Shown piece after piece: positions 3,623 to 64,000 of a stretch of 64,000 nucleotides of DNA (the stretch's first letter is position 1; each line of letters begins with the position of its first letter). Both the position numbers and the translations under genes were made by a program. Origin of the DNA: Thraustochytrium sp. TN22 (Eukaryota > Sar > Bigyra > Thraustochytrida > Thraustochytriidae); the NCBI GenBank assembly GCA_013306675.1, contig JABLUY010000111.1, positions 1 to 64,000 of the forward strand. Reading direction: 5' to 3'. Under the pieces are notes generated by a model. It worked only from the letters and a program-made list of their open reading frames with translations. It did no database searches and was not told where the DNA came from.

Positions 3623-3640
3623 CAGACATCGCAAGTTATT
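3623..3640 (+). repeat. Left terminal inverted repeat of hAT copy 1
   Basis: CAGACATCGCAAGTTATT. It differs from the other end at three positions (9, 11 and 16). The first eight bases, CAGACATC, are identical at both ends. This is the transposase 3' end of the element. Confidence 0.9.
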
Positions 3641-3928
3641 AGCGGACTCGCCTCTGAGCCAAGTCCGTCTCCCTCAGCGGCCCACACTCCCCACAATCTC
3701 TCCGTCATTCTCAATCCGTGTTCGCGTACAGGGGAGTGTATCTTTCCGTGTCTCTCCAAACGATCGATGGAGCACGCACGAGTCTTTCCAAGCTTCTCCA
3801 GTGAAGGCCCATTGCGAAGCGGCTCCGTCCGAGTCCCCCAAGATTCACCAGCGCGACCGGGCCTTTCCGCGTTTATCCCGAGTTCGTAGGTGGGTGGATG
3901 CGTGGTACTTCTCAAGGTGGAAATGTTC

Positions 3929-6900
3929 TTAATTTTTTACTTGGGGAGCGCGAACACGATTCTTCGCAGTCGCCTCGATGTGCCGGAGGACTTCGGTGCT
4001 GTCGCAGAGGTTGGACCCGTTGTTCCTAAGGAAGGCGTACGTAGACAGGCTCTGGGAGAGAAGTCGGCCCTTGCGGCGCTGGCTCTGCGCGAGCGCCACA
4101 GTACTAAACATGCTCTCGGTTGAGCAGGTCGTTGGATCGACCACGTAGTTGTGCGCAAAGACCATTGCAACGTGCTTGACGTGGCTCTCGTAGGTCTTGA
4201 ACCATTTGGTGCTGATGTCCTTGCCCAGGCTGGCTTCTGTGCAATCCATTGAGTAGGACCACAGCTTCGAATACGTCATACCTTGTAGATTCCGCGACTC
4301 GTTCTGTTCCATCTTGCGGGTCTCCTCGCGAATAAAGGATAGCTCGCGCGAAGCCACCTCCTTGGCTCTCTCTCGGGTGCTTTTGGTACGGTCGGTGTCC
4401 GCGTGGGTCAGAGAGGCCGGCGAGATGGGTACCACCTTGAAGATGAAGTCGTCCAGAACCTCGTCCTCATTGTCGCCAGACCTGTCGCTGTCGCCCAAGG
4501 TATAATCGTTTGGGAATGTGTCTGGCGTTGTGCAGACCTCAGGTGTCGGCGGCTCCTCGTTCAGTAGCTCCTCGACGATGAGCTCCATGACCTGGCTCTC
4601 GATGAAGTCCCGTGCGATGAAAGATCGATCCTTGATCTTGCTCTGGCAGGTGTTAGCGACCGTCTTCATCAGACCAAGCAGGATAGGCTTGGTCAACGCA
4701 TTCTCGTGCATCCTCCTCAGGCCGTCCACCTCCGAGCCGAAGCCACGCAGCCCCACAGAACGACCGAATGCGACTTCGCGCAGCAGCTCAGCACGGCCGA
4801 CGCAGATAAGAACGGATGCGCGGGCGAGGAGCATCTGAGGCAGCTGCGTCGAGCGAAAAGGGATCTCGAGGGCGAGCATGATTGATGCTGGGTCTGTGCC
4901 GGGCCTCGCATCGGAACCCTTGGGTGATGTCCAAAGCGGGTCGAAGTACCGGTCCAGGAAGGCAACGAGGCGGTGCGCGACCATGCGGGTCACGGGGTGA
5001 AGCTTCAGGAATTTGATTGTGCGCGCCTCGGGCTCGAGGTTCGCCTCTGCCATGGTGCTGGACGAGATGTCGCCGCGGAGCTTGATCGCCGCCTTCACGC
5101 TCTGCGATGAGACGACGTTGTAGGAGTCGTAGAGAGCACCCTTGAGGCCCTCCACAGCGACGAAGATCTGCGCGCGCGTTTTGTGAAAGCGCTGCGCAAA
5201 GGCTTGCACGCGGTAGGTCTGCGACAGGAGTTGCTGAAGTTCCGGGAGTATGAGCTCCTCGTCGCCCGTGGCGCGCAGCGCGCTCATCTTATCGAACCTG
5301 CCTGAGCAGGTGATGCGCTCAGCGATCTTCATGATCGTCTCCTGCTGAGCCTTGTTGATCCACTTGCAGTTCTTGATGTCCTTCTTTGTTGAGATGAGCA
5401 GCTCGAAGGCGGGCCACACTGTAGCATGAAACTCGACGAGCGACAGGAAGCCGCTCCAGCGCGTCGCGCATTCGCGTGGCGCCCGGGTCTTCTTGATTCC
5501 GAGTACCTTGCAGATAGCCGTCAGCGCGTTCGCGGCGACATGTGAGCGCGTCAAGAAGCTGTTGCGCAGCTTAATTCGGGCTACTAGCGTCGTAAGCACG
5601 CGCTTCTCGTTCGTCCATATCGTCTCGCCTCCTTGCAAGACGCGTGCGGCCTGACGGCCGCGCTCTTCAAAGAACTCGTAGGAGACGTTTTTGGCGATGA
5701 TATCGCTGCGAAGGTCGTCAAGTGGCGCTTGCTGGGACGGGGCGCCGTAAATTCCTGCCGAGATCTCCCAGAGCTGGTGCAGGTTGTGCTGGTCGACATC
5801 CACGCTGGATGCCGTGCCCTGTGAAGTCGTTGTGAGGGCGAACATCCGCACGAGTGAGTCCGCGGTTGGCACCGCACTCGCCTCGAGTTCTGGGCCCATG
5901 GCATCGGCGAGCTCGTCGACATCCTTGAGGCCGGTCAGGCCGACGGTCTGCAGCAGCTCGTTGGTCAGCTTGGAGCTGATGAGGAAGCCGAAGGCGTGCT
6001 GCACGCAGAGGTTGAGTCGATGCGCAGCGCAATGCTCGTATGGCACGCCCAGCGCCTCGTTTGCGGCGATGCAGTTGCTTGCGCCGTCTGAGATGACCGC
6101 GGCCACCTGCTTCTTGAACTTTGCATCCTCCACGACGCTGCCAACCTCCTGGTTTTCGTCGTCTTCCTCCGCGTCCTGGCTAGTCGCTTCCGCGTCGGCA
6201 GAGGCGTCGTTGAGCAGATCTGAAACGGTCTCGCGCAGGCGCTGCGCGATGTTCATGCCGGTGTGCTTCTCGTTGAAGGGGTCCATGCCGAGAGTCATGA
6301 CGCGCACTTTCCAATCGTCCAGCCAGCGAAGCTGGATCCCTAGGAAGGAGTCACCTTTGTAGCTGCTCCAGGCGTCGTGTTGCAGGACAAGCCGTGGCAG
6401 CCCCGCGCGGTCGCACAACGCCCTGATGCTCGCGTACATAGACTGCACCATACAGGTCTTCTCGGCATGCATGATCTCCTTCACGGTGCTCTCAACGGGC
6501 GGTGTGTAGTCAAATGGGCACATCAGACTCACCCACCTACGCAGCGAAGGCAGCCTACCATGGCTGAACGGGAGGCTGGCGTCGATGATCATGCGCGTGA
6601 ACTCGATGTTGAGCAAGCGCCGCTCGCGAAGGGTTGCCGCCGGGCGCTTCGAGTTGCCAAACGTCTGTTGAGCCCGGACCAGCTTCGCTTCGACCTCGGC
6701 GTCAACCTCGGCCTCGATCCTGGACGCGAGCTCCTCGATCGCCTTGAGCACGAGCCCGTGATGCTCCTTGTGACAGCGCTTGAAGTGACGGTAGCAGTTC
6801 GCACGGTTCGTGCTCCAGCTTTGAGGCTGGTTACACACCTTGCACACGTGGGAGTCGCCTTCCTCGGCCGGGTTGATCTCGACAAGGTCATGATCGATTG

Positions 6901-7630
6901 CAATCTGGACGTACTGCTTGTGGTCCATGCGCTCGTTCTTCCGGCACGTGCCTTGCTTCGGTGTCACCTCGTTGGCCGTGGCTCCGGTCTTCGCCTGGGC
7001 CTTTGACGACTTCAGCCGCTTCGGCTTCACGGCCTGAACCTTCTTCGTCGGCTTCCGCTTCATGCCTCCAAAATATGTCGCCCAGGACCCCGGGTTGGTG
7101 TGGTCCGTCGTTTTCGCTTGGGAGGACGAGCTACTAGATGTGGATATCAGTTCCGAGCCCGAGTTCCCGCCTGAGCTCGCAGTCGCTGGACTGCCGCACG
7201 TTTTAGCGGCAGCATCAGAGCCTGGCTCCGACGTGGACAGCACGGAGGGGCTTGATCTACCCTGAGAACTGTCTCCTTGTTCGCCAACAAGGTCGCGGCC
7301 GACGCCGTCGTCATCGTCGCTGTCGTCGCTGCCGTCGTTGTCGCTCAGGCTCATCGGTCTTGGAGTCGAGGTTGAGCCAACCAGTGCAACCACGGACTGG
7401 GCTCCGCATGTACCCATCGGCGCCTCAGCCTGCGGCCCCGCTGCTGTCGCAGCCGCTGCCGCCGCCACCGCCACCGCCACCGCCGCCGCCGCCGTCACCG
7501 CCGCCGCCACCGCCACCGCCGCTGCAGACGCGGCTGCCGCGACGCCTTTGACGGTTTGCAGGCTGAGCTTAACCACCAGCCGCAGCGTCGCAGCGCCGCA
7601 GCTCAACCACCGGCCCCGGACTTTCGTCAT
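3929..7630 (-). CDS. hAT-family transposase (BED zinc finger, RNase H-like core, hATC domain)
   Basis: A 1,233-residue transposase that should bind its element's ends and cut and paste it. I start at the ATG at 7630; the frame stays open upstream but only with non-ATG codons. After an Ala-rich and acidic/Ser-rich N-terminus comes a BED-type zinc finger (C263, C266, H282, H287). The RNase H-like core shows the first catalytic Asp in HDAWSS (D419) and the second in SDGASNC (D515). The hAT-typical C-x2-H follows (C534, H537 in HCAAHRLNLC). The C-terminal dimerisation motif, STESMFSTVALAQ near residues 1170-1182, ends in a FLRNN-like tail and probably supplies the acidic third residue. No stop interrupts the frame. 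It is longer than classic hAT transposases (600-900 residues), mainly through its low-complexity N-terminus. Ala codons there form a GCN repeat (about 7450-7545). Confidence 0.93.
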   Translation of the reverse strand: MTKVRGRWLSCGAATLRLVVKLSLQTVKGVAAAASAAAVAVAAAVTAAAAVAVAVAAAAAATAAGPQAEAPMGTCGAQSVVALVGSTSTPRPMSLSDNDGSDDSDDDDGVGRDLVGEQGDSSQGRSSPSVLSTSEPGSDAAAKTCGSPATASSGGNSGSELISTSSSSSSQAKTTDHTNPGSWATYFGGMKRKPTKKVQAVKPKRLKSSKAQAKTGATANEVTPKQGTCRKNERMDHKQYVQIAIDHDLVEINPAEEGDSHVCKVCNQPQSWSTNRANCYRHFKRCHKEHHGLVLKAIEELASRIEAEVDAEVEAKLVRAQQTFGNSKRPAATLRERRLLNIEFTRMIIDASLPFSHGRLPSLRRWVSLMCPFDYTPPVESTVKEIMHAEKTCMVQSMYASIRALCDRAGLPRLVLQHDAWSSYKGDSFLGIQLRWLDDWKVRVMTLGMDPFNEKHTGMNIAQRLRETVSDLLNDASADAEATSQDAEEDDENQEVGSVVEDAKFKKQVAAVISDGASNCIAANEALGVPYEHCAAHRLNLCVQHAFGFLISSKLTNELLQTVGLTGLKDVDELADAMGPELEASAVPTADSLVRMFALTTTSQGTASSVDVDQHNLHQLWEISAGIYGAPSQQAPLDDLRSDIIAKNVSYEFFEERGRQAARVLQGGETIWTNEKRVLTTLVARIKLRNSFLTRSHVAANALTAICKVLGIKKTRAPRECATRWSGFLSLVEFHATVWPAFELLISTKKDIKNCKWINKAQQETIMKIAERITCSGRFDKMSALRATGDEELILPELQQLLSQTYRVQAFAQRFHKTRAQIFVAVEGLKGALYDSYNVVSSQSVKAAIKLRGDISSSTMAEANLEPEARTIKFLKLHPVTRMVAHRLVAFLDRYFDPLWTSPKGSDARPGTDPASIMLALEIPFRSTQLPQMLLARASVLICVGRAELLREVAFGRSVGLRGFGSEVDGLRRMHENALTKPILLGLMKTVANTCQSKIKDRSFIARDFIESQVMELIVEELLNEEPPTPEVCTTPDTFPNDYTLGDSDRSGDNEDEVLDDFIFKVVPISPASLTHADTDRTKSTRERAKEVASRELSFIREETRKMEQNESRNLQGMTYSKLWSYSMDCTEASLGKDISTKWFKTYESHVKHVAMVFAHNYVVDPTTCSTESMFSTVALAQSQRRKGRLLSQSLSTYAFLRNNGSNLCDSTEVLRHIEATAKNRVRAPQVKN

Positions 7631-7848
7631 TGGACCAGAAGTTCCGGAATTCCGACTTATCCACAGCCAATGCCCACAGCTTCCGTCCGAGTGCGTCCAA
7701 CCCAAGACTCGGCGCCTCGACAATCTTTCCGCGTCTTTCCACGACCAGGTCCGGGAAAGTATATCCTTCCCCTTCTGTCATGAAGCGGACGGAGTCGGAC
7801 AAACCTGGATAAACAAGTCCGGTAGGATTATCACAGACGGAAAGGTTC

Positions 7849-7866
7849 AACAACTAGTGATGTCTG
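7849..7866 (-). repeat. Right terminal inverted repeat of hAT copy 1
   Basis: On the minus strand CAGACATCACTAGTTGTT, the transposase 5' end of the element. It is identical to the start of copy 2 at 61,304. The right target duplication CACCACCG follows at 7867-7874. Confidence 0.9.
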
Positions 7867-8437
7867 CACCACCGCACCGCTGCCGCGGCACCACTGCCAT
7901 CCGAGTCCTCATCCTGATGACCACTGCATGCAAGACTTGCAAGTCCGAGTCGTGAAAAGCACCGAGGGCGGTTGCAGCGGGACCGGCCGGGGCCGTCCCG
8001 GTCTGTAATGCGCACCGCGGCTTGCACCCGGCCCTGCTCGCGCCGGGGCCAGTCCCATTGAAATCGAAATTGCGCGCGCGGGGCTGCAGCGCAGTGCAGG
8101 GCAGCGCACTGGCAGCGCAGCGCAGCGCGGCGCGGGGCTGCGAGGGCGCGGCCGCAGCGCGCCATACCCCGAACTGGCCTGGCACAGGCCCGGCAGCGCA
8201 GGCCGCGCAGGCGTAGTGGAACCAGCCTCGGTCGCTGCGCGTCACGAGAGGGAGGGCGGTATCTATCTGGTATCCATCTATCAATCAATCATTGTTTCCG
8301 AGGCCGGCCCGGGGGCCGAGTGCAAGCAAATCTAAAGTCGAAACGCGCGGCGGCGGCGGCGGCGGAGGATCCACGCGCGGACGGCGGCGCGAGCGGCGGC
8401 GGGAGCAGCGGCGCGGCGACTCTCGGAGGCGAGAAAG
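7867..8437. other. Intergenic, hAT right flank and HADHA upstream region
   Basis: Starts with the right target duplication. Positions about 8085-8165 are rich in GCAGCGCAG-type repeats. 8267-8292 holds a short ATCTATCAATCA-like stretch. No gene supported. The promoter and 5' leader of the downstream beta-oxidation gene should lie here. Confidence 0.65.
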
Positions 8438-10687
8438 ATGCTGGGGCTGGGCGCGGGCGCGGCCCGGCGCGCGGGCGGCGCCGCGGCCGCCAGCCTGGGC
8501 GCGGCGCAGCAGCGCGTGGCGATGCTGTCGGCCGCCGCCACGGGCGGGCGGTTCTCGCTGGAGAAGGTGGGCGAGGTGGCCGTGGTGACGCTGGACGACC
8601 CGGAGTCCAAGGTGAACACCATCAGCACCAAGATGCAGGCGGAGTTCTCGGACCTGCTGGACACGCTGGAGCAGGACAGCTCCATCAAGGCGGCCGTGCT
8701 CATCTCGGGCAAGAAGGATAACTTCATCGCCGGCGCCGACATCAAGGAGCTGGACAACATGCAGTCCGCGGCGGACGCGGAGAAGGCCTCGCAGATGGGC
8801 CAGGCCATGTGCGACCGCCTGGCCAACAGCAAGAAGCCCATCGTGGCGGCCATCAACGGCAGCTGCCTGGGCGGCGGCCTCGAGGTGGCCATGGCGTGCA
8901 CCTACCGCATCGCGACCTCCGGCAAGAAGACCTCGCTGGGGCTGCCCGAGGTCCAGCTCGGCCTGCTCCCGGGCGCCGGCGGCACGCAGCGCCTGCCGCA
9001 GCTCGTGGGCATCCAGGCCGCGCTGCCCATGATCCTCACCGGCGCGCCGGCCAAGCCGGACAAGGCCAAGCGCCTGGGCCTCGTCGACGAGGTCGTGGAC
9101 CCTTTCGCGCTGCGCGACGCCGCCGTGGCGGCCGCGCGTGAGATCGCCGAGGGCTCGCTCAAGGTCAAGCGCAAGAAGAAGAACCTCATGGGCCGCCTGC
9201 TCGAGGACAACCCGCTCGGCCGCATGGTGCTCTTCGACCAGGCCTCCAAGCAGGCGCTCAAGCAGAGTGGCGGCCTCTACCCGGCCATCCCCAAGATCCT
9301 CGACGTGGTGCGCGCCGGCGCCGACAACGGCCCCAAGGCCGGCTTCGCCGCCGAGTCCAAGGCCTTCGGCGAGCTCACGCAGACCGAGGTCTCCGAGAAC
9401 CTGCGCGGCATCTTCTTCGGCTCCACGGCGCTCAAGCAGAACAAGTTCGGCAAGCCCTCCGACCCGGTCAAGAAGGTCGCCGTCATTGGCGCCGGCCTCA
9501 TGGGCGCCGGTATCGCGCAGGTCTCCACCATGAAGAGCATCGACGTGCTGCTCAAGGACGTCAACCAGAAGGGCCTCAGCCGCGGTCTGGGCCAGATCCA
9601 GGGCGAGCTCGACAAGCGCGTCAAGAAGCGCAAGATGGAGCCCTACGCCCGCGACGTCGCCATGGCCCGCATCGTCGGCCTCACCAACGACGACAACTGG
9701 CAGGCGCACTTCAAGAACGTCGACTGCGTCATCGAGGCCGTCCTCGAGGAGATCAACCTCAAGCACCGCGTCATCCAGGAGCTCGAGGAGGTCGTCCCGT
9801 CCTCGGCCATCATCGCCACCAACACCTCGGCCATCCCCATCGCCGAGATCGCCAAGGGCGCCAAGCGCCCGGAGAACGTCCTCGGCATGCACTACTTTTC
9901 CCCGGTCCCCAGCATGCCCCTGCTCGAGATCATCCCGCATGAGGGCACCTCCAAGGAGATCATCTCGCGCGCCGTTGACCTTGGCATGCGCCAGGGCAAG
10001 ACCGTCGTCGTCTGCAAGGACGTCCCGGGCTTCTTCGTCAACCGCTGCCTCGCCACCTCCATGGCTGCCACCACCGGCCTCCTGGTCGAGGGCGCCGACT
10101 TCGAGGCCATCGACAAGGCCATGAAGAACTTTGGCAACCCGGTGGGCCCCGTCACGCTCTGTGACGAGGTCGGCATGGATGTCGCCATGCACGTCGAGCA
10201 CACCATGGCCGCCGACCTCGGCGTCCGCATGACCGGCGGCGAGCCCAAGCTCCTCCAGGCCCTCGTCGACGCCGGCCTCCTCGGCCGCAAGTCCTCCAAG
10301 GGCTTTTACACCTACCCGACCGGCAAGGCCGCCAAGAAGGCCAAGAAGGAGGTCAACCCGGAGGCCAAGGCCATTATCGAAAAGTTCAAGCGCGACGGCC
10401 CCAAGCTCGATGAGGAGGAGATCCAGAAGCGCGTCGCCTACCCCTTCATCAACGAGGCGCTCTACTGCATCCAGGAGGAGGTCGTCGCCACCCCGGTCGA
10501 CGCCAACATGGCCGCCATTATGGGTGCCGGCATTGGCATCCCGCGCGGTGGCCCCATCAAGATCTTCGACCGCCTCGGCCAGAAGTGGGTTGACGACATG
10601 AACCGCATGGCTGACCAGTACGGCGAGCAGTTCCTCCCGGCCCCCATTGCCGTTGACTATGCCAAGGCCGGCAAGAAGTTCCTCTAA
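8438..10687 (+). CDS. HADHA: Mitochondrial trifunctional enzyme alpha subunit (enoyl-CoA hydratase / 3-hydroxyacyl-CoA dehydrogenase)
   Basis: A 749-residue bifunctional beta-oxidation enzyme, close to the human subunit's 763. It hydrates enoyl-CoA and oxidises the hydroxyacyl product with NAD in the mitochondrial matrix, normally bound to a thiolase beta subunit, which is not in this window. The N-terminal 35 residues are Ala/Arg-rich without acidic residues, as in a mitochondrial presequence. The hydratase domain has the oxyanion-hole motif IAGADIKEL (about 97-105) and both catalytic glutamates, E149 in GGGLEVA and E171 in LPEVQLG. The dehydrogenase domain begins near 345 with the NAD-binding loop VIGAGLMGAG and has the catalytic His in GMHYFSPV (H485). 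The frame is intact. The start ATG is the first in frame and has an A at -3. Confidence 0.97.
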   Translation: MLGLGAGAARRAGGAAAASLGAAQQRVAMLSAAATGGRFSLEKVGEVAVVTLDDPESKVNTISTKMQAEFSDLLDTLEQDSSIKAAVLISGKKDNFIAGADIKELDNMQSAADAEKASQMGQAMCDRLANSKKPIVAAINGSCLGGGLEVAMACTYRIATSGKKTSLGLPEVQLGLLPGAGGTQRLPQLVGIQAALPMILTGAPAKPDKAKRLGLVDEVVDPFALRDAAVAAAREIAEGSLKVKRKKKNLMGRLLEDNPLGRMVLFDQASKQALKQSGGLYPAIPKILDVVRAGADNGPKAGFAAESKAFGELTQTEVSENLRGIFFGSTALKQNKFGKPSDPVKKVAVIGAGLMGAGIAQVSTMKSIDVLLKDVNQKGLSRGLGQIQGELDKRVKKRKMEPYARDVAMARIVGLTNDDNWQAHFKNVDCVIEAVLEEINLKHRVIQELEEVVPSSAIIATNTSAIPIAEIAKGAKRPENVLGMHYFSPVPSMPLLEIIPHEGTSKEIISRAVDLGMRQGKTVVVCKDVPGFFVNRCLATSMAATTGLLVEGADFEAIDKAMKNFGNPVGPVTLCDEVGMDVAMHVEHTMAADLGVRMTGGEPKLLQALVDAGLLGRKSSKGFYTYPTGKAAKKAKKEVNPEAKAIIEKFKRDGPKLDEEEIQKRVAYPFINEALYCIQEEVVATPVDANMAAIMGAGIGIPRGGPIKIFDRLGQKWVDDMNRMADQYGEQFLPAPIAVDYAKAGKKFL

Positions 10688-12512: not shown

Positions 12513-12535
12513 CTGCCAGTGTGCAGTGCAACGCC

Positions 12536-12567
12536 TGCCAGTGCTGGTGCGCGGCGCAGCACTGGCA
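12536..12567. repeat. Perfect inverted repeat (hairpin) just upstream of kinase start
   Basis: Arms TGCCAGTGCTG and CAGCACTGGCA (11 bases each, perfect complement) surround a 10-base loop. It lies 24 bases upstream of the kinase ATG at 12512, within a cluster of CCAGTG/CACTGG motifs. It could form a stem in the 5' leader or be a dyad protein-binding site. Confidence 0.8.
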
Positions 12568-15908: not shown

Positions 15909-15961
<53 letters not shown>

Positions 15962-48265: not shown

Positions 48266-50569
48266 TCAAAAGGCTGCATCCATCGGCATATTCTCGCGCA
48301 CCGTCATCTCGCGAAGCTGCTCCGAGGAAAAGGGCCGTTCCTCCTCGACATCGTCGTCGTCGTCGTCGTTGTCATCCTGCCGGTCGCGACCGTGCAGGTG
48401 CCGCTGGTGCGGGTGATGCAGGCCGGCGGCCGGAGCACGGTCCAGGATGGTGCGCGAGCCAATGTCAGCTGGCGCCTGGGCCCGGTCGTCGCGAGCGCCC
48501 TGCCGGCGACGAACGGAGGGCGCCTCCACCTCAAGCTTGACTGCGCCGCGTGGCAGCGCGGGCACCAGCACGCCGGATATTGAGAGCCTCTCCGCGCCCT
48601 TGAAGGTGGGCTGCGCACGCACGCAGAACTTGCGGTACAGCTGCATAATCTCCGTCGTGCGTTGCTCGATCGTGCCCAGGTACAGCATGATGTTGCCCTC
48701 GGAGACCTTGGTGCCGAGCCGCAACATGAGCGCCTTGTCGCTCTCGGCTGCCGAGTTTGCTGCGGTCGGTACAAGCGCCTCCGACGAGGCAGGCAGACCG
48801 GAGGCGCCTGACCCCGCCATCGTGCTGCGATTCTGCGCCGACCGCTTCCCGCGAAATGACGCGCCGCGGGACGCGGGCGCAGGCCCGCCGCCGGTGGAGC
48901 CAGACGCCGCGGCACGCTTGGTGCTGGTGCGCACCAGACTGAGACGACCGCGTTGAAGGTCGGCGGCGCTGACCAGGGCGGCCGCGCTGACGTCCACCTC
49001 GCCAAAGCCGACGATCTCCGGGGCACGGAAGTTCTCCATGCCGCGCATCGAGGGACACCCGATGCGAAAGAAGAGGTTCTCGGTGGCCTGGCAAATAGCC
49101 TCCAGACTCTGGTCATTGTCCGTGATGCGATCCGTGAGCTCCGCCACCTGTGAACGGTAGCGATTGAGGCGGTCTTCCAGGTCCGCCACGATGCGCTCGC
49201 GATTGCCCTCGTTGCTGCTGAGCTCCTTCTTGTACTTGTCCATCTCGCTGACGAGCCGGCGCAGTACCTCCTCATCGCGCTCCGTGTCTCGCGTCACGTG
49301 CTGCACGTGGTTGTACAGCGCGAAGTTGCTATCCTCGTTGCGAACGAACTGCGTCACGATGGCGTTCATGTCGCGCACGCCCGTCGCCGTGTACAGCTTC
49401 TCGAAAGCCTCCTCGAAGGATTGGATGCTTTCGTTCGACTCGTTGATGCTCTCCTCCTGCTTCTTGAGCTCGCGGCTGAGCGTCGACAGTTTACTCTTGA
49501 GCAGCGCCTCCTCCTCGGCGTCCAGGTTGCCGGCCGCGATGCGCTCTGCAATCTGTCGTTCCTTGCGCTTGATGGCAGTCTGCTGCACGTGGGAGCTGAT
49601 GAGCGCCTGCTCCTGCACCAGAGACCCGAGCTCGTTGAACTCCTTGTCGAAATCCTCCGCCTCGAGCTGCGCGCGGACCGTGGCTTCCTCGAGCTGCAGA
49701 AGCGCCTCCTGGCGGCCCTCGTATGCGAGGTTGCTCTGCTCCAACATGACGGCCATCTCGCGCTGCTTGACGCGGAAAGCACGCTTCAGCTTCTTGTAGC
49801 TGCGCTCAAAGGTTTGCCGTTCCAGCCGCCGCGCGTTGATGGCATCCACCAGCACGTTGTTGCTCGCCTCAAACTCCGACGCGCGGATGTTCAGCTTGTT
49901 CAGCCGATTCTCTAGGATTTGCTTCTGCTTCGTCTTTTGGTTCTGCACCATGCGCATGGCCTTGACGCCGCCCATCTCGCGGCGCGCCCGCTTCTCCTCC
50001 ACCATCTGCTGACGCACGCTCTCGATTGCCCGCGCGTGCTTGATGGCCTGGATCTCCAGCTGGTCCGCCTTGGACGCCAGCTTCTCCACGAAGACCTGCT
50101 TCTCCGCCAGCGCCTTTGGCGTCTGCTGCGCGGACACTCTCCTGCGACGTGCGCTCTCCCGGTCCGCGCCGCCACCCATGGACCCCATGCCCAGACCCGG
50201 AGTCAGGCTCAGGCCTGCCGCGCCGTCCTTGCCCCTCGCGCCGCCCAGGTGGGCGCCGCCCATGGCGCCCATCATCACGGCGAGCTGCTGCGGGTTGATG
50301 AGCATCATCTCCGCGAACTCACGCTCGCGCCTGGCCTCGCGCCGGTCGCGTCGCCGCTTCGCCTTGGCGGCCTGATCCAGCGGCTTGGCAGCCTTGGCCT
50401 CGCCCTCCCCGTCCTTCTTGCCCTTGCCCTGGCTGCGCTTGCGCGCCCTGCCGAGCGTCGACTGCGGCCGCCGCGCGCCCGAGGGCGCGAGGCCGTCCAA
50501 GAGCGCCAGCATCGACGCCTCCAGCTCAGGCGCCGCGCCGCGCCCCGTCGGCGCCGTGCCGGGCCGCAT
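48266..50569 (-). CDS. Outer dynein arm docking complex coiled-coil protein (ODAD1/CCDC114/CCDC63/ODA1 type)
   Basis: 767 residues from the ATG at 50569 (MRPGTAPTGRG); the longer open frame starts without an ATG. A basic linker precedes a long coiled coil from about 145 to 500. The segment KQKQILENRLNKLNIRASEFEASNNVLVDAINARRLERQTFERSYKKLK is the typical ODA1/CCDC114 arrangement: register-forming helix, Asn-x-x-Leu, then an Arg-rich E-R-x-x-F-x-x-x-Y-x-K-L block. C-terminal parts are Ser/Ala-rich with a final Asp run coded by a GTC/GAC repeat (about 48346-48372). In the family the protein forms the docking complex that places outer dynein arms every 24 nm on the A-tubule. Its place next to DNAI2 agrees with that role. 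The exact paralogue (ODAD1, ODAD3 or CCDC63) is not certain. Confidence 0.83.
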   Translation of the reverse strand: MRPGTAPTGRGAAPELEASMLALLDGLAPSGARRPQSTLGRARKRSQGKGKKDGEGEAKAAKPLDQAAKAKRRRDRREARREREFAEMMLINPQQLAVMMGAMGGAHLGGARGKDGAAGLSLTPGLGMGSMGGGADRESARRRRVSAQQTPKALAEKQVFVEKLASKADQLEIQAIKHARAIESVRQQMVEEKRARREMGGVKAMRMVQNQKTKQKQILENRLNKLNIRASEFEASNNVLVDAINARRLERQTFERSYKKLKRAFRVKQREMAVMLEQSNLAYEGRQEALLQLEEATVRAQLEAEDFDKEFNELGSLVQEQALISSHVQQTAIKRKERQIAERIAAGNLDAEEEALLKSKLSTLSRELKKQEESINESNESIQSFEEAFEKLYTATGVRDMNAIVTQFVRNEDSNFALYNHVQHVTRDTERDEEVLRRLVSEMDKYKKELSSNEGNRERIVADLEDRLNRYRSQVAELTDRITDNDQSLEAICQATENLFFRIGCPSMRGMENFRAPEIVGFGEVDVSAAALVSAADLQRGRLSLVRTSTKRAAASGSTGGGPAPASRGASFRGKRSAQNRSTMAGSGASGLPASSEALVPTAANSAAESDKALMLRLGTKVSEGNIMLYLGTIEQRTTEIMQLYRKFCVRAQPTFKGAERLSISGVLVPALPRGAVKLEVEAPSVRRRQGARDDRAQAPADIGSRTILDRAPAAGLHHPHQRHLHGRDRQDDNDDDDDDVEEERPFSSEQLREMTVRENMPMDAAF

Positions 50570-52084
50570 CCTCGCGCGCGCGCGCCGCGCCCGCGTGCCT
50601 TCGCGCCCTGGCGCGACAATGGCGAACGCGAGCACGGACCTGACTGTGCGCAGACCATCGATGACCGCCTCGCCTCGCCTATCCGTTGGGGGAGGTTCGC
50701 TTTCTCGCCGCCGCGGCTGCCGCACTTGCAAGGCGGTGAGACAGCACGATTTTCTCCCTTGCACTCTTCCATGGCGCGTGGTATACTACACTTGCCCAGC
50801 ACCGCGCGGTGGCACCAACCTGCCCGGCCTTACGGCGGTTAGCATCAGCTTGGCTAGGCGAGGCGTCCTGGGCCTGGCCGCTCGTGCATTTGGCGCGATG
50901 ACGGCTGGACCGCGCTGCAGGAATTGGTGTGCTGCGTCGAAGGAGCCCCATCTCTGACTGGAGCGTCTCAGCATAGCGGCACTGGGTGCTCTGCAGTTGA
51001 CTTATCCGATGCATGCTGCGTACGAGCACCTCACAGACTGAGATTGCCCGGATCGAGGCCTCGGCGATCCCAGTCCGTCAGGCGCGCGCGCTACAAGCCT
51101 GCGCCTCTACGTTTACCACTGCGAAGCCCTGGAGAAATTTCCTGTGTGGCAGCTGACGGCCGCGACCATCGTCGTTGTGCTCGCGCGTCCATCTTGTCCG
51201 CCATGAAGATCGCGACCTGTGGTCTTCGAAACGGCGCCCGTGGGACGGGCAGGCGACGTCGCGGTGCCGTGTGTGTGTATGTGAGTGACGACGACCAAAA
51301 CGTGGCTCAGAGACGCTCTGGTCTTTTACACCAAGGGCGCGTTGCCTGCTGCTACTGAGGACGACAGTCACGCGGGCGGGGCTTGACGAGACTCTTGAGT
51401 GTTGAAGTTCCCGTGATGACGCGAATGCGAAAATCCAGAACATGTCCCAAACCGCCTGCGCTGGAAGAGGATCCGAAAGTTCGATGCCCCTCCCACCCAA
51501 CGAGGCCTCATCAGCGACCCGAAGCTGAGCACGGGCTGTGCGCACTTCGGAAGAAGTAAGATTGACTACGGCAGCCAACCAGTGCATGGGATCCTCGTTC
51601 ACGAACTGAAAGGCCCGAGCTGGTTGCAAACTTCATCATCCATGCTGCACTGCCACTTCGTTGTCGCCGCCGCCGCCGTCGCCATCACGAAGTTCAAGTT
51701 CGAGGCGTGGCCTTTCGGCAAGTAAAAGTTCAACCCGAAGGTGACTTCGAGTTCCAGGTCAACTTGAAGTTTAATTTCGAGTTGGAGTTCGAGTTCACTG
51801 TCCTGAGAGGTGACGACTTCCGGGTCCGAGTCGAGCTACGGTTAATTTACATCTTCTCAGAATCACTTCAAGTTGTGATTGGCGGCACTGCCAGTGCAGT
51901 GTGCACTGCAAGTTGTCAAGAGAGGTCACAAGTGACGGGGCTCGCCGCGCCCGCTCCTCCGAGGACGGGCACAACCACCGCGGGCGCGACCTCTGCGAGC
52001 GCGGCCACTGGCACTTCAAGCGGCGCGGCACAACCTCCGGCAGAACTTTGGCGAGCTCGCTGCCGCGGCGGCAGACCGGCACCC
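50570..52084. other. Divergent intergenic region, docking-complex gene / XRCC3
   Basis: 1.5 kb without a supported gene. 51680-51800 holds a degenerate repeat of AAGTTC/GAGTTC hexamers that, read in one frame, gives alternating Phe/Glu/Lys and runs openly into XRCC3, though without an ATG. The rest is of moderate GC with no recognisable coding similarity. Confidence 0.6.
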
Positions 52085-53071: not shown

Positions 53072-53113
53072 GTTCGGACTCTCAGCGTCTTTTCCATGTC
53101 GAGTCAGTCAGCT

Positions 53114-53148
<35 letters not shown>

Positions 53149-53210
53149 TTGTCTGTGAATCAGTCAGTCAGTCAGGAAGGTCAATCGTTTTACTTTGGCC
53201 CTTTGTACGG
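53072..53210. repeat. (AGCC)n tetranucleotide tract in the XRCC3/ASF1 3' gap
   Basis: The only 139 bases between two convergent genes hold about nine AGCC units (53114-53148) followed by GTCA repeats (about 53160-53175). Confidence 0.9.
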
Positions 53211-57467: not shown

Positions 57468-57529
57468 TCTCAGACTCGAGCAAGACAAAAAAAAAGAGAA
57501 GGGGTTGGATTATGCACATGATCCTGGCA

Positions 57530-57820
57530 TCAAGGATTGACAGCGAGTGCCTTCCCGTTGCCCGTGTTGTACGGTGGCGCGTAGAAGTTCCGCATTGCCG
57601 CGCCCTTTTGATAGAAGCAGTATGCCGCGATGGCGCCCGGAATTGTGATCAGGAGGACGATCACCGCCGCGACGAACTGGTATATCCGGACGATCGTCTC
57701 GCCCTCGTCGTCGCCAAGGTCATCGGGGCCGAAGCTCTGTGCCGTGCTCACCGTGGCCCCGACCAGCAGCAGCCCCAGCGTCCTCCCCAGCGCGCTCACG
57801 GTCAGTTTGTTGTGCTGCAT
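57530..57820 (-). CDS. Small type I membrane protein
   Basis: 96 residues from the ATG at 57820, convergent with the phosphoesterase gene and only 62 bases from its stop. It has a signal peptide (TLGLLLVGATVSTAQ), a short acidic luminal part (FGPDDLGDDEGE), one membrane span (IYQFVAAVIVLLITIPGAIAAYCFY) and a short cytosolic tail. The frame is open upstream through a pentanucleotide repeat, but that part has low-complexity Arg/Glu composition and lacks a credible start. Unknown function. The layout (short signal peptide, one TM) is like the next gene upstream. Confidence 0.7.
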   Translation of the reverse strand: MQHNKLTVSALGRTLGLLLVGATVSTAQSFGPDDLGDDEGETIVRIYQFVAAVIVLLITIPGAIAAYCFYQKGAAMRNFYAPPYNTGNGKALAVNP

Positions 57821-58700
57821 CGGCCCTGCTGCGAGGCGACTCGCCTCGCCTCGCCTCGCCTCGCCTCGCCTCGCCTCGCTTCGCCTCGCCTCGCCTCGCC
57901 TCGCCTCGCCTCGCGTCGCCTCGCGTCGCCTCGCGTCGCCTCGCGTCGCCTCGCCTCGCGTCGCCTCGCGTTGCCTCGCGTTGCCTCGCCTCGCGTCGCA
58001 GTACGCGGCGCTAGCTAGTAGCTGGTCTGCCTCCCTCTCCCGAGTTGAGACTGCCTGCAAAAGCGTACCGCCGCAGGTGCACGCGCTAACCTGGTAGATA
58101 GTGGCTCGGCCAAGCGCTGGACTGGGTTTGCTACGCGATGCAGACCGCGTTGGCCAAAGCATGGTATGCCGCCTTCCGGGGCGTGCGGTCACGGTAGCGT
58201 GGTGCATGTAGTCATGGCGGCCAGATGAAGAGTGGTGGGGCCGGGCTTGTTCGACCTTCTTGTAGTAGTTGGCTCGAGAAAGCTCGCACTTCGTCCGCCG
58301 TGATTCACGTGCGAGGCGGCGGCGTCGCACTGCGCGCGCTTCAGCCTGCGCGCGCTGCATCAACAGTGTGGCAACGCCGTGCAACTGACCGGACCAAGCC
58401 TGAGAGAGAGATAAACATCTTTCATGACTCGGAACGTCTTTTCCTTCCGCCCGCAGCAGCGCGGCCTGCAGCAGGCTGAGCAACTGGCCAGACCGGGCAC
58501 AGCTCACAAAGTGCATGTAGGCTGGAACGCTCAGATCATTGCAGGCTAAGTGGGCTGCACACGTTGGACAAGGTTTGCAGCGGCTGACTGGCGGAGACCA
58601 GTGCCACCGCGAAGTTATAGGTCGCCTGCATGACGCGCAAACGACGCCAAAAGATCATCTTCTTGTCTCGACATGAAAACACGCCAATTGTGTTCACCCT
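57821..58700. other. Intergenic between two small membrane-protein genes
   Basis: 880 bases. The first 180 are mostly the TCGCC/TCGCG repeat. The rest (58000-58700) has moderate GC and no supported gene. Confidence 0.6.
57841..57999. repeat. (TCGCC/TCGCG)n pentanucleotide array
   Basis: About 32 consecutive five-base units, drifting from TCGCC toward alternating TCGCC-TCGCG and a few TTGCC. It lies only about 20 bases upstream of the small membrane protein's ATG, in its 5' leader or promoter. Confidence 0.95.
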
Positions 58701-59234
58701 CTAAGCGGACCACGACGCCTGCGTATCTTTGCTCGGGACGATAGTTGCTGTCGGCACACTTGGAAGTCCGGAGGTGGCGGCCGGAGCGGCGGTCCCGCCG
58801 GCTGTAGTCGCGTAAGTTGAATTCCAGCTTGCGACGAATGCAGCTTGCTCATTTCGTTGATGAAGAGTACACATGACGCTGATGACGCCGATGAGTAGAA
58901 GAACCCCTCCAAGACACGCGAGGACGATGATCAGCAGATTGTCGTACCAATCAATGCCATTTTCCTCCCGACCACACGGGCAACCATTCTTCAGCGGATC
59001 AGAGAACCAGGTTTCTTTGCAGTCAGAGGCATTTCCCGGGCAGCTGCAGCGGTTAGAAACTGAAAGGACGCATGACAAGTCACCAAGGCAACCGTTGAGC
59101 TGTGCCCAGCACTCGCATGAGATGTCGCCAATGTTATCGTACGAGGCTGGACAGTTTTGCGTCGTCGTATTCTGCGCCAGGCTCAGCACAGCCCCGGCCA
59201 TCAGCAACGCTGCCGTGCGGATCAGCGCCTTCAT
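58701..59234 (-). CDS. Cysteine-rich type I membrane protein
   Basis: 177 residues from the ATG at 59234. It has a signal peptide (LIRTAALLMAGAVLSLAQ) and a luminal domain of about 70 residues with ten cysteines (CPASYDN, ISCECWAQLNGC, LSCVLSVSNRCSCPG, DCKETW, NGCPCG) and two N-x-S/T sequons. One membrane span follows (LLIIVLACLGGVLLLIGVISVMC) and then a Ser/Thr/Ala-rich tail. I do not recognise the family. A related but broken copy lies at 60600-60987. The upstream leader is a CTCTG-type pentamer array, much as the neighbouring small membrane gene has TCGCC pentamers. Confidence 0.75.
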   Translation of the reverse strand: MKALIRTAALLMAGAVLSLAQNTTTQNCPASYDNIGDISCECWAQLNGCLGDLSCVLSVSNRCSCPGNASDCKETWFSDPLKNGCPCGREENGIDWYDNLLIIVLACLGGVLLLIGVISVMCTLHQRNEQAAFVASWNSTYATTAGGTAAPAATSGLPSVPTATIVPSKDTQASWSA

Positions 59235-60599
59235 CGCGTCCCGCTCTGCTTCGCACTGCCCTGCCCTGCTCTGCTCTGCTCTTCTCTTCTCTGCTCTGCT
59301 TTGCTTTGCCCTGCCCTGCTCTGCTCTGCTCTGCTCTGCGCAGCTTTGGAGTCTGCTTGCCCGGCTGGCCGGCCTCAGGCTCGGACGTAGCCCAGGCTGC
59401 AGCGGCGGTGCGCGAAGCGATCAACCTAGAAAATGAGCTCTTGAGCGCGCCGCACACCGGCAACGAACAGCTGCGCCGGAGGCCCGGGAAGTACCACCCT
59501 GATTTCACCAAGGGCCCCAGACCGCGCTGCTCGAGCTGCTCGCGCACAAGTGGCCAAACGCCGCGCCCGAGTTCAAGTTCTGTGGGCACGGACGAGCCGC
59601 AGCCAGCCGGAGCGCGGCTCGTCCTCAGCTCCCCAGGCCGGTAACCGAGCTCCGCAGCCTCCGCTCCAACTTGAAGCCGCCTTCACAGCAGTCAAGGTCC
59701 AGCGAGGGCCGGCGTGACTCGCGGGCGACGCGACGTAGCCCAGAGGACAGCCCACGCCGAGAGATGGCCGCCCGGGACATCGTGCAGTGGCCGCCCGGGA
59801 CATCGTCATCCGTGCGGGCGCGCGTGCAGCCTGCCAGTGAGAGATGGCCGTCGGGGACATCGTCATTTTTCCGGGCGCCCGCACGTGCAGTCTGCGTGCA
59901 ACCTGCGCCTTTGCAGGCTGGCGACGTGGAGATGATCTCAATCGGCTGCTCGAGGCAGTGGTTCGGGCCCCACGAAGCACGGGCGCATGCGTCGTCGTCG
60001 GTCCATCGTCCGGCCCGGGACGAGCCCTACTGACAGTGAGAGGCAGAAATTGCGGAGCGCACGGCGAATTGGCCAAAGTCGTCTTGAGCTCCGAGTCGGC
60101 CCAGGCTCGCGATTCGCCGCCTTTGCTTTGCAGATGTCTGACTTGCCGGCCTGCGGGACATCGGAGTGTCCAAAGAAGCTGCGCCGCCGCGGGCGTGTCT
60201 GGCGTGCATAGCCCGTGCAGCTGCGTCAGCCTGCGTGAACAAAGTGGCAAACAAGGTTGTCCATACCGTGACATGATGCTGCGTGTTGTGGGGAAGTGAA
60301 TTCTCTTCTGAAAAATCCCGCAGCCAAGCAGCGCGGGCTTTGTCCTCGTGGCTTTGGGACCTTCAAAGGAGCTGTCGCTTGCTGGTGCCTTGCGTCGAAG
60401 TAGACAGGCAGGCATCGTGGAATGTCCCTTTGCAAGCTGAGGGCTCCTTGCTTCTCCCTTGGAACAGACTGGCTGTCGCCTGCAGCAAGTGTGGCTGTCG
60501 GGAGTGCACTTGATGAGACCATACTAGTAGTCGGTGGGTAGCTGCCGAAGGGACCAAAGAGACCAGGTTGAGGATAGATGGCGCCGAGGCTTGCCTGAT
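59235..60599. other. Intergenic, Cys-rich gene upstream region with degenerate repeats
   Basis: Holds a pyrimidine pentamer array (59256-59339), then a region of three degenerate repeats around GATGGCCGCCCGGGACATCGT (about 59762, 59786 and 59842). Open frames exist on both strands here (for example 59844-60299 plus) but show no domain. I do not call a gene. Confidence 0.5.
59256..59339. repeat. (CTCTG/CCCTG)n pentanucleotide array
   Basis: About 16 units of five bases with variants CCCTG, CTCTG, CTCTT and CTTTG, directly upstream of the Cys-rich gene's ATG. Confidence 0.9.
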
Positions 60600-60987
60600 T
60601 CAGACCGCGCATTGGCTTGCATTAGTGCGAAGTAGGAGGACCACAAACTCGATGGGAGGGACAATGCAAAGGCGAACAACAATCCCCCCCATAATGATGA
60701 AGGGCAGCCGCCCAGGGTCGCTCGACATTCTCCGAAGAACGAGTCGCTACCCAAGTCCTGGTCGCATGAACGATCATACCGCTGGAAATTCCTCGCAGGC
60801 TGCATGCATTGGAGTGTCGCAGCGGTTTGATTACAGACACTGCAACGCCGTCCAGGCAACCCATGTGTGCTGCCCAACACTCGCATGAGATCTCGGAGAT
60901 GAGGGAGGACGACGAGGGCAGTCCTGCGCCGCACAAAGTGCGGCCCTGGTCACCAGGAGCGCTGCACTGTGCAAGAGCGCCCTTCAT
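60600..60987 (-). pseudogene. Degenerate paralogue of the Cys-rich membrane protein
   Basis: On the minus strand an ATG at 60987 (MKGALAQCS) is followed by SLISEISCECWAAHMGCLDG, clearly related to NIGDISCECWAQLNGCLGD of the gene at 58701-59234. The DNA matches too (the plus strand shares CACTCGCATGAGAT and its surroundings). Beyond that point the similarity shifts between frames: later Cys- and TM-like segments occur in other frames, for example a hydrophobic stretch around 60600-60690. It is either a frameshifted pseudogene or a gene with introns. A signal peptide as clear as the intact copy's is not visible. Confidence 0.45.
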
Positions 60988-61303
60988 CTCAGCTCCCGGG
61001 GTACCTAGGCAACGGAAGCCGTGCCATCCCATAGCACGCGCGCCCTGCTGTGCCCGGATCTCGCCTTACTTCGCGCAAACGCAGCCGCGGCCGCAGTCGT
61101 ACGTGCCAGTGCAGGCACAAGCAAGCCGCAGCTGAGCTGCCCCCGCGCTCGTGCAGCGCCTCGCCCGCCGGCGGTTGCTGGTGCGGCCCAGGACTTTCCA
61201 GCGCCGCATTCCAGGCCCTGACCATGCACTACTACACGCAGTTCAAGTTGAGTACCCCTGGGTACGACTAAGTTATGACCAGCGGCTACCACTGCCCGGC
61301 GGC
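60988..61303. other. Intergenic up to hAT copy 2
   Basis: 316 bases with no supported gene. The last eight bases (61296-61303, CCGGCGGC) are the expected left target-site duplication of the second hAT copy; its partner lies outside the window. Confidence 0.6.
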
Positions 61304-64000
61304 CAGACATCACTAGTTGTTGAACCTTTCCGTCTGTGATAATCCTACCGGACTTGTTTATCCAGGTTTGTCCGACTCCGTCCGCTTCATGACAGAAGGG
61401 GAAGGATATACTTTCCCGGACCTGGTCGTGGAAAGACGCGGAAAGATTGTCGAGGCGCCGAGTCTTGGGTTGGACGCACTCGGACGGAAGCTGTGGGCAT
61501 TGGCTGTGGATAAGTCGGAATTCCGGAACTTCTGGTCCAATGACGAAAGTCCGGGGCCGGTGGTTGAGCTGCGGCGCTGCGACGCTGCGGCTGGTGGTTA
61601 AGCTCAGCCTGCAAACCGTCAAAGGCGTCGCGGCAGCCGCGTCTGCAGCGGCGGTGGCGGTGGCGGCGGCGGTGACGGCGGCGGCGGCGGTGGCGGTGGC
61701 GGTGGCGGCGGCAGCGGCTGCGACAGCAGCGGGGCCGCAGGCTGAGGCGCCGATGGGTACATGCGGAGCCCAGTCCGTGGTTGCACTGGTTGGCTCAACC
61801 TCGACTCCAAGACCGATGAGCCTGAGCGACAACGACGGCAGCGACGACAGCGACGATGACGACGGCGTCGGCCGCGACCTTGTTGGCGAACAAGGAGACA
61901 GTTCTCAGGGTAGATCAAGCCCCTCCGTGCTGTCCACGTCGGAGCCAGGCTCTGATGCTGCCGCTAAAACGTGCGGCAGTCCAGCGACTGCGAGCTCAGG
62001 CGGGAACTCGGGCTCGGATCTGATATCAACATCTAGTAGCTCGTCCTCCCAAGCGAAAACGACGGACCACACCAACCCGGGGTCCTGGGCGACATATTTT
62101 GGAGGCATGAAGCGGAAGCCGACGAAGAAGGTTCAGGCCGTGAAGCCGAAGCGGCTGAAGTCGTCAAAGGCCCAGGCGAAGACCGGAGCCACGGCCAACG
62201 AGGTGACACCGAAGCAAGGCACGTGCCGGAAGAACGAGCGCATGGACCACAAGCAGTACGTCCAGATTGCAATCGATCATGACCTTGTCGAGATCAACCC
62301 GGCCGAGGAAGGCGACTCCCACGTGTGCAAGGTGTGTAACCAGCCTCAAAGCTGGAGCACGAACCGTGCGAACTGCTACCGTCACTTCAAGCGCTGTCAC
62401 AAGGAGCATCACGGGCTCGTGCTCAAGGCGATCGAGGAGCTCGCGTCCAGGATCGAGGCCGAGGTTGACGCCGAGGTCGAAGCGAAGCTGGTCCGGGCTC
62501 AACAGACGTTTGGCAACTCGAAGCGCCCGGCGGCAACCCTTCGCGAGCGGCGCTTGCTCAACATCGAGTTCACGCGCATGATCATCGACGCCAGCCTCCC
62601 GTTCAGCCATGGTAGGCTGCCTTCGCTGCGTAGGTGGGTGAGTCTGATGTGCCCATTTGACTACACACCGCCCGTTGAGAGCACCGTGAAGGAGATCATG
62701 CATGCCGAGAAGACCTGTATGGTGCAGTCTATGTACGCGAGCATCAGGGCGTTGTGCGACCGCGCGGGGCTGCCACGGCTTGTCCTGCAACACGACGCCT
62801 GGAGCAGCTACAAAGGTGACTCCTTCCTAGGGATCCAGCTTCGCTGGCTGGACGATTGGAAAGTGCGCGTCATGACTCTCGGCATGGACCCCTTCAACGA
62901 GAAGCACACCGGCATGAACATCGCGCAGCGCCTGCGCGAGACCGTTTCAGATCTGCTCAACGACGCCTCTGCCGACGCGGAAGCGACTAGCCAGGACGCG
63001 GAGGAAGACGACGAAAACCAGGAGGTTGGCAGCGTCGTGGAGGATGCAAAGTTCAAGAAGCAGGTGGCCGCGGTCATCTCAGACGGCGCAAGCAACTGCA
63101 TCGCCGCAAACGAGGCGCTGGGCGTGCCATACGAGCATTGCGCTGCGCATCGACTCAACCTCTGCGTGCAGCACGCCTTCGGCTTCCTCATCAGCTCCAA
63201 GCTGACCAACGAGCTGCTGCAGACCGTCGGCCTGACCGGCCTCAAGGATGTCGACGAGCTCGCCGATGCCATGGGCCCAGAACTCGAGGCGAGTGCGGTG
63301 CCAACCGCGGACTCACTCGTGCGGATGTTCGCCCTCACAACGACTTCACAGGGCACGGCATCCAGCGTGGATGTCGACCAGCACAACCTGCACCAGCTCT
63401 GGGAGATCTCGGCAGGAATTTACGGCGCCCCGTCCCAGCAAGCGCCACTTGACGACCTTCGCAGCGATATCATCGCCAAAAACGTCTCCTACGAGTTCTT
63501 TGAAGAGCGCGGCCGTCAGGCCGCACGCGTCTTGCAAGGAGGCGAGACGATATGGACGAACGAGAAGCGCGTGCTTACGACGCTAGTAGCCCGAATTAAG
63601 CTGCGCAACAGCTTCTTGACGCGCTCACATGTCGCCGCGAACGCGCTGACGGCTATCTGCAAGGTACTCGGAATCAAGAAGACCCGGGCGCCACGCGAAT
63701 GCGCGACGCGCTGGAGCGGCTTCCTGTCGCTCGTCGAGTTTCATGCTACAGTGTGGCCCGCCTTCGAGCTGCTCATCTCAACAAAGAAGGACATCAAGAA
63801 CTGCAAGTGGATCAACAAGGCTCAGCAGGAGACGATCATGAAGATCGCTGAGCGCATCACCTGCTCAGGCAGGTTCGATAAGATGAGCGCGCTGCGCGCC
63901 ACGGGCGACGAGGAGCTCATACTCCCGGAACTTCAGCAACTCCTGTCGCAGACCTACCGCGTGCAAGCCTTTGCGCAGCGCTTTCACAAAACGCGCGCGC
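61304..64000 (+). mobile_element. hAT-superfamily DNA transposon, copy 2 (runs off the window)
   Basis: It starts with the same terminal repeat CAGACATCACTAGTTGTT as the right end of copy 1 and matches it in inverted orientation (positions add up to 69,170) with no length change. I find only two substitutions, at 62019 and 62028, in the 2.7 kb that can be compared. By copy 1's length its other end should lie near 65,547. Flanking DNA differs from copy 1, so it is a separate insertion and not part of a large inverted duplication. Confidence 0.93.
61540..64000 (+). CDS. hAT transposase, copy 2, partial (5' 820 codons)
   Basis: Same protein as the copy at 3929-7630, from the same ATG, open to the window edge. 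One of the two differences changes Glu to Asp in the Ser-rich N-terminal part (GSDLIST for GSELIST); the other is silent. The zinc finger and both Asp motifs (D419, D515) are present. The C-terminal hATC domain lies outside the window. Confidence 0.92.
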   Translation, partial: MTKVRGRWLSCGAATLRLVVKLSLQTVKGVAAAASAAAVAVAAAVTAAAAVAVAVAAAAAATAAGPQAEAPMGTCGAQSVVALVGSTSTPRPMSLSDNDGSDDSDDDDGVGRDLVGEQGDSSQGRSSPSVLSTSEPGSDAAAKTCGSPATASSGGNSGSDLISTSSSSSSQAKTTDHTNPGSWATYFGGMKRKPTKKVQAVKPKRLKSSKAQAKTGATANEVTPKQGTCRKNERMDHKQYVQIAIDHDLVEINPAEEGDSHVCKVCNQPQSWSTNRANCYRHFKRCHKEHHGLVLKAIEELASRIEAEVDAEVEAKLVRAQQTFGNSKRPAATLRERRLLNIEFTRMIIDASLPFSHGRLPSLRRWVSLMCPFDYTPPVESTVKEIMHAEKTCMVQSMYASIRALCDRAGLPRLVLQHDAWSSYKGDSFLGIQLRWLDDWKVRVMTLGMDPFNEKHTGMNIAQRLRETVSDLLNDASADAEATSQDAEEDDENQEVGSVVEDAKFKKQVAAVISDGASNCIAANEALGVPYEHCAAHRLNLCVQHAFGFLISSKLTNELLQTVGLTGLKDVDELADAMGPELEASAVPTADSLVRMFALTTTSQGTASSVDVDQHNLHQLWEISAGIYGAPSQQAPLDDLRSDIIAKNVSYEFFEERGRQAARVLQGGETIWTNEKRVLTTLVARIKLRNSFLTRSHVAANALTAICKVLGIKKTRAPRECATRWSGFLSLVEFHATVWPAFELLISTKKDIKNCKWINKAQQETIMKIAERITCSGRFDKMSALRATGDEELILPELQQLLSQTYRVQAFAQRFHKTRA

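Follow-up and report, generated by a model that had tools for sequence, protein, structure and literature searches.

Recent insertions and mosaic copies in a small family of hAT-like DNA transposons of Thraustochytrium sp. TN22

We analysed a 64,000-bp stretch of Thraustochytrium sp. TN22 DNA (the window: bases 1-64000 of the 114-kb contig C13), which contains two nearly identical transposon copies, copy 1 and copy 2, in inverted orientation and 53 kb apart. It is very probable that the two copies inserted recently and independently of each other and that they belong to one autonomous cut-and-paste DNA transposon, for which a divergent hAT element is the best reading. The window was compared with itself by BLAST and the whole genome (37.9 Mb, 453 contigs) was then searched at the DNA level for further copies. 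Directly visible are 8-bp target duplications, a uniform element length, near-identity between copies, unoccupied paralogues of insertion sites, a mosaic tract and derivatives with a foreign interior. The coordinates of the features are collected in Table 1.

The two copies, their relatives and their insertion sites

The self-comparison aligns positions 61304-64000 with 7866-5170 in inverted orientation over 2697 bp, with two mismatches and no gaps, which is exactly what an earlier sequence-only reading of the window had described for the 2.7 kb common to both copies. Copy 2 extends past the window edge, and its right end, foreseen near 65,547, was found in the whole-genome search at exactly C13:65547; both copies are therefore full-length, at 4244 bp. 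Over all 4244 bp they differ by two substitutions and no indels, at element positions 716 and 725 (window 7151 and 7142 in copy 1, 62019 and 62028 in copy 2). None of the other four intact copies in the genome shares either substitution with copy 1; copy 2 has no private substitution and the intact copy L003 has one.

The size of the family was estimated from its ends. The 18-bp end was searched genome-wide allowing up to two mismatches, with the reversed pattern as a control. There are 17 exact ends, two in each of eight copies and a single one in a ninth, L006, and four further matches with two mismatches, against three matches for the reversed control. With the 17 exact ends accounted for, nine copies carry family ends: five intact (two on C13, the others on C15, C101 and C32), one diverged (L006) and three non-autonomous derivatives. 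Copies without these ends are visible to the DNA search alone, in which 40 of 541 candidates were scored, a lower bound. All five intact copies are 4244 bp long. L001 (copy 1), L002 (copy 2) and L003 differ from each other by one to three substitutions and L004 from L005 by four, while the two groups are separated by 49-53. In L006, on C57, 12 bp of the 3' end are missing and the target duplication has one mismatch.

Perfect 8-bp target duplications surround all five intact copies, and all five are different. They are also perfect in two of the three derivatives, agree at seven of eight bases in L006 and are absent in the derivative on C299. For the pair in the window, the different flanks noted in the sequence-only reading are borne out, and each copy has its own perfect duplication. 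The genome search for further copies and empty sites, which that reading had proposed, gave the five length-identical copies and unoccupied paralogues of two sites. For the latter, the flanks of the nine copies were joined (110 bp per side) and searched in the genome. Apart from the loci of the copies themselves, the joined flanks match two paralogues that hold no element and three further stretches that are short and partial. The site of copy 2 has a paralogue at C13:67389-68997 whose alignment crosses the junction (1644 columns, 85% identity), and that of L004 one on C101 (2061 columns, 10 mismatches, 45 gap columns). These two insertion sites are thus seen in an element-free state. The near-identity of the copies and their matched duplications support the earlier view of a very recent transposition of an intact element, and recent transposition of the family as a whole is well supported by these sequences.

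Concerning the two duplicated neighbourhoods, copy 2 (window 60614-61303 together with C13:65548 onward) sits in a local duplication of which the other member is C13:67389-68997. At the target, the unoccupied paralogue of the L004 site (L048, C101:26798-27033) is longer by 13 bases, among them a second GTGTGGC. No excision footprint is claimed there; slippage in GTG-rich DNA accounts for the 13 bases equally well.

Two of the five intact copies lie on one contig, which is mildly unusual (a few per cent by chance, on a rough hand estimate). The 53-kb spacing is most simply that of two insertions on one contig, perhaps aided by local hopping.

Mosaic tract and non-autonomous derivatives

L004 and L005 are mosaic. 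Both carry the same tract of at least 969 bp, which is identical to L006 and about 5% different from the copies of the window. Of the 213 sites that are informative on L002, L004 and L006, 48 unite L004 with L006, and all of these fall inside element positions 609-1577; the 165 at which L004 agrees with L002 are all outside. If the sites were dealt at random, the chance of such contiguity of the 48 L006-like sites would be about 1e-46. From 572 to 1688 there is no difference between L004 and L006, where about 60 are expected from the 5.5% L002-L006 divergence elsewhere (chance about 6e-28).

This pattern is explained most simply by ectopic gene conversion, after which the chimera transposed further. 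The simplest history would consist of one copying event, 969 to about 1117 bp in length, into the ancestor of L004 and L005, with L006 or a near-identical sibling most simply as the donor. The opposite direction of copying is disfavoured, because a second event would be needed to explain L001-L003. One chimera is found at two sites with different duplications and has therefore moved after forming, with its own or another copy's transposase.

The tract alters 33 residues of the transposase; in total L002 differs from L004 by 34 residues (residue 39 lies outside the tract) and from L005 by 36. The tract covers the putative DNA-binding region of the protein and includes a putative zinc finger and the putative first catalytic Asp. 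The uncorrected ratio of nonsynonymous to synonymous differences per site (pN/pS) is 0.77 in the tract (L002 vs L004) and 0.76 over the frame, and so there is no sign of selection for the swap. A tentative idea, which we consider rather doubtful, is that gap repair lets an end-damaged relative supply the family with new versions of the N-terminal half of the transposase, the half that putatively binds DNA, with immobile copies as a reservoir of variants. If true, two versions of the transposase, 33 residues apart in the tract and at most four elsewhere, would both have been spread by transposition.

Mosaic DNA transposons are already known, and the present family adds a chimera that moved after forming. 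In Pokey of Daphnia, recombination between diverged copies of a DNA transposon likewise gave mosaic transposase sequences; as part of that report states, the mosaic copies lacked the element ends and the mobility of recombinants was left to future work (PMC3575242). Unlike those described in that part, the chimera here occurs in two copies with different intact target duplications and has thus moved. Galileo of Drosophila buzzatii, in passages of PMC2775673, also has similar inverted copies on one chromosome, and chimeric copies occur. In contrast to the Galileo copies at breakpoints, which exchanged their duplications, those of the window are unexchanged and the chimeras lie off the contig of the pair. 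The conversion treated in an excerpt of PMC2686159 is among maize p1 genes and not among hAT copies.

The three derivatives, on C343, C299 and C255, are 2608, 2280 and 2116 bp long. They keep 291 bp that match element positions 1-270 at 90% and about 325 bp that match the 3' end at 93%. The DNA between these ends matches loci elsewhere in the genome, with the longest matches on C375, C397, C435 and C29. Within this interior lies a tandem array of a 164-bp unit, which is repeated 7.3 times in the C343 copy, and the derivatives differ in length by 328 and 164 bp, i.e. two units and one unit of this array. The interior also holds an opposite-strand fragment of another hAT-like transposase (20.7 bits, under the Pfam cut-off). 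Derivatives of the Ac/Ds type that arise by gap repair retain both ends around a foreign interior, and those found here are alike in this respect; conversion from an ectopic template would use the same repair route. They differ from the Ac/Ds type in that the interior matches another hAT-like family and the length of the 164-bp array varies among the three copies.

That other repeat family (L037, L038, L039 and loci on C397 and C449) has arrays related to the 164-bp unit on C375, C435, C397 and C449. A fragment that codes for a hAT-like C-terminus belongs to it on C375, C435 and C29, and it is the family that matches the interior of the three derivatives. The C299 derivative (L010, C299:3267-5546) has intact ends and non-matching 8-bp flanks, CGGCGACC and CCATTCTC. 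No reciprocal partner for these flanks was found among the nine copies, and flank deletion or recombination is possible at this locus.

Alternative readings and the affiliation of the element

The sequence-only reading had also suggested that the pair could drive inversion of the 53 kb between the copies, or that the outer ends could mobilise the whole segment. Both are possible in principle, and inverted, nearly identical copies of 4.2 kb offer sufficient homology for recombination. Ectopic recombination between inverted copies exchanges their target duplications, which is the criterion applied to Galileo inversions (part of PMC2775673). Here the duplications are matched within copy 1 and within copy 2, with no exchange, and therefore no single exchange between the two copies is recorded. 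Also, the outer 8 bp at 3615-3622 and C13:65548-65555 differ (CACCACCG vs CCGGCGGC), so that mobilisation of the whole 62-kb segment is unsupported: a move of the segment would leave one duplication, and a single crossover would exchange the two. Matched duplications would also result from two or any other even number of crossovers, or from conversion that involved none. We regard a past rearrangement by either route as very improbable; neither has left a trace as a past event, and there is no indication that the pair has worked as a composite element or in an inversion.

Repeated 4-kb elements are a familiar difficulty for assemblers, and the contigs are short (C13 has 114 kb), so one element could have been placed twice or the reads of several copies merged, which would also make a mosaic of L004 and L005. 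The five copies, however, lie on four contigs with five different perfect duplications; private substitutions are found in copy 1, L003, L004 and L005 (none in copy 2); the mosaic borders are equal in two copies on different contigs; and two of the sites have unoccupied paralogues. An assembly artefact thus appears quite unlikely, though somewhat less so than a rearrangement. The two insertion sites within locally duplicated DNA could also point to segmental duplication of element-bearing DNA, instead of transposition, as the source of the extra copies. On the flank searches this source was rejected and is the least credible of the three: the joined flanks of the nine copies lead back to the copies' own loci, with no other matches than the element-free paralogues of two sites and three brief partial hits, and in each of the two pairs of duplicated flanks the element is present in just one member. 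Independent insertion of the two copies is therefore kept as the preferred reading.

Concerning the affiliation of the element, its terminal inverted repeats are 18 bp long, identical at 15 of 18 positions and begin CAGACATC, giving CAG...CTG ends. Terminal inverted repeats of hAT elements are short (10-25 bp) and the elements are 2.5-5 kb long (part of PMC3942097). Like the hAT superfamily (Hermes, Ac, hobo, Tip100), the element has 8-bp duplications, short imperfect ends of the CAG type (18 bp), a length in this range (4244 bp), subterminal repeats at both ends, weakly collinear catalytic-core motifs and non-autonomous derivatives with the same ends. The hexamers GGAAAG and GACGGA occur seven and six times in the 660 end bases and once each in the 3584 interior bases; in 300 mononucleotide shuffles of the ends, no hexamer reached seven occurrences. 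All three derivatives retain these subterminal repeats.

The frame of 1264 codons (7723 to 3929 in copy 1) is uninterrupted in all five 4244-bp copies, in line with the uninterrupted transposase described in the sequence-only reading. Coding probably starts near the ATG at 7417, and not at 7630, because L006 has a frameshift and stops upstream of the equivalent of 7417, while the indels that separate L002 from L006 in the part of the frame downstream of it (12, 21 and 18 bp) are all multiples of three; the frame of L006 is open for 1192 codons. The protein of the window contains a putative zinc finger, C192-x2-C195-x15-H211-x4-H216, a candidate for the N-terminal BED-type finger of the hAT superfamily; its four residues are invariant in four aligned proteins, and it has no Pfam match. 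According to part of PMC10368747, Hermes binds its subterminal repeats via a BED domain, and by analogy this would fit the putative zinc finger. The transposases of the superfamily are RNase H-like, with D, D, E and a conserved W. A profile of the transposase alignment A1 is collinear, in a weak match, with the full length of Hermes (8edg) at three motifs, namely the first Asp of the catalytic set, TRW and the catalytic Glu. By counting, the alignment falls on Hermes residues 180 and 572, which we take to be catalytic. The second D was assigned by eye (SDGASN). The sole private change of L003, at element position 3761, converts F1104 to L beside the putative catalytic glutamate E1101.

C199 carries another hAT-like transposase frame without interruption (L035:3015-6431), which has 1138 amino acids and is about 25% identical; one search gave no convincing pair of ends with an 8-bp duplication around it. 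In the genome search this relative (tblastn E 6.7e-45) matches Dimer_Tnp_hAT (PF05699), the C-terminal dimerisation region of hAT transposases, with 22.4 bits against a cut-off of 21.4. The same domain is found at E<=1 in three of the six members of the wider alignment A2 and is undetected in the transposase of the element itself.

Several results weigh against the best reading, an autonomous hAT element. Pfam gave no family for the transposase at E<=1 or at E<=10, and a single-sequence search of PDB chains gave none at E<=1. The Hermes match of A1 has an E value of just 0.12-0.31, is closely followed by two unrelated archaemetzincin chains at 0.41-0.42 and is gone with A2; three pieces compared with 8edg score 9.7, 0.9 and -4.3 bits, the negative one being the Glu piece. 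The C199 relative, taken as a whole protein, scores 17.8 bits for Dimer_Tnp_hAT, under the cut-off. The uncorrected pN/pS over the frame (L002 vs L006) is 0.76, so that coding constraint looks weak, and the structure predicted from the single sequence is unusable (mean predicted local distance difference test score, pLDDT, 38).

A cut-and-paste transposon with 8-bp duplications and an ancestry other than hAT would agree with the missing Pfam match, and with Hermes and Dimer_Tnp_hAT support that is weak and partly lost with other alignments. We nevertheless think it unlikely, marginally less so than an assembly artefact, given the 8-bp duplications of all five intact copies, the CAG-type ends, the subterminal repeats and the weak collinearity of the catalytic core with Hermes on residues 180 and 572. 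On balance, a divergent hAT element remains the best reading of these sequences: the hAT assignment of the sequence-only reading holds on the duplications, ends, subterminal repeats and Hermes collinearity, and it lacks a Pfam match of the transposase. The element departs from the superfamily in its transposase of about 1160 amino acids, which is unrecognised by Pfam, and in its targets. The target consensus of the Ac group is nTnnnnAn and that of the Buster group nnnTAnnn. By inspection, neither fits any of eight target duplications (L006 being represented by its 5' copy and the C299 derivative, which has no duplication, not counted), and the element is therefore placed in neither group. Searches for relatives gave 27 pattern stretches in viral_contigs (query A1) and 21 in genome_contigs (query P0003), none of which was confirmed by tblastn.

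Table 1. Positions of the two transposon copies and their parts in the window
Feature	Position	Strand	Remark
Copy 1, hAT-like transposon, 4244 bp	3623..7866	-	locus L001
Copy 2, first 2697 bp	61304..64000	+	locus L002; rest to C13:65547
Target duplication of copy 1, left	3615..3622		CACCACCG
Target duplication of copy 1, right	7867..7874		CACCACCG
Target duplication of copy 2, left	61296..61303		CCGGCGGC; partner C13:65548-65555, outside the window
5' terminal inverted repeat, copy 1	7849..7866	-	CAGACATCACTAGTTGTT; 15/18 positions match the 3' repeat
3' terminal inverted repeat, copy 1	3623..3640	+	CAGACATCGCAAGTTATT, read inward
5' terminal inverted repeat, copy 2	61304..61321	+	
5' subterminal region, copy 1	7537..7866	-	GGAAAG (4), GACGGA (3); counted on copy 2, identical
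3' subterminal region, copy 1	3623..3952	-	GGAAAG (3), GACGGA (3); counted on copy 2, identical
Element 609-1577, copy 1	6290..7258	-	tract of L004/L005 identical to L006; copy 1 has the other version
Element 609-1577, copy 2	61912..62880	+	other version from the L004/L005/L006 tract
Transposase frame, copy 1, from the likeliest start	3929..7417	-	1162 amino acids + stop; open back to 7723
Transposase frame, copy 2	61753..64000	+	cut by the window edge

Elsewhere in the window, positions 57837-57999 form a short-period tandem repeat in the self-comparison. A frame at 48266-50764 contains an ODAD1 coiled-coil domain (outer dynein arm docking, E 2.1e-34), which suggests a flagellated host. No gene for a chlorophyll a/b-binding protein came up with PF00504 at E<=0.001.

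Proposed mechanism and biological meaning

In the mechanism that we propose, the transposase would bind the subterminal repeats and excise the element at its CAG...CTG ends in a cut-and-paste manner, and the element would be inserted at an 8-bp staggered cut. The gap at the donor site may be refilled by synthesis-dependent copying from a sister or homologous copy, by which the copy number would rise. Refilling of the excision gap from an ectopic copy is a likely route for both the mosaic tract and the foreign interior of the derivatives. Synthesis-dependent strand annealing is described, in part of PMC4423477, as a route of gene conversion and of filler DNA at transposon excision sites.

The idea of an inversion hotspot at this pair should not be retained as a finding. 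The transposase is divergent enough for Pfam to miss it, and such families may therefore be under-annotated in protists. The two natural versions of the transposase make the effect of a swap of the putative DNA-binding half on end recognition testable. The work on Pokey, in the part cited here, asked if recombinants still move (PMC3575242); in the present family one chimera did. Insertion, probable ectopic conversion and the birth of non-autonomous elements are thus seen in one snapshot here, in the small and almost complete family of a compact protist genome. The family would be a divergent addition to a known kind of transposon, of which the chimeric copies are the most instructive part.

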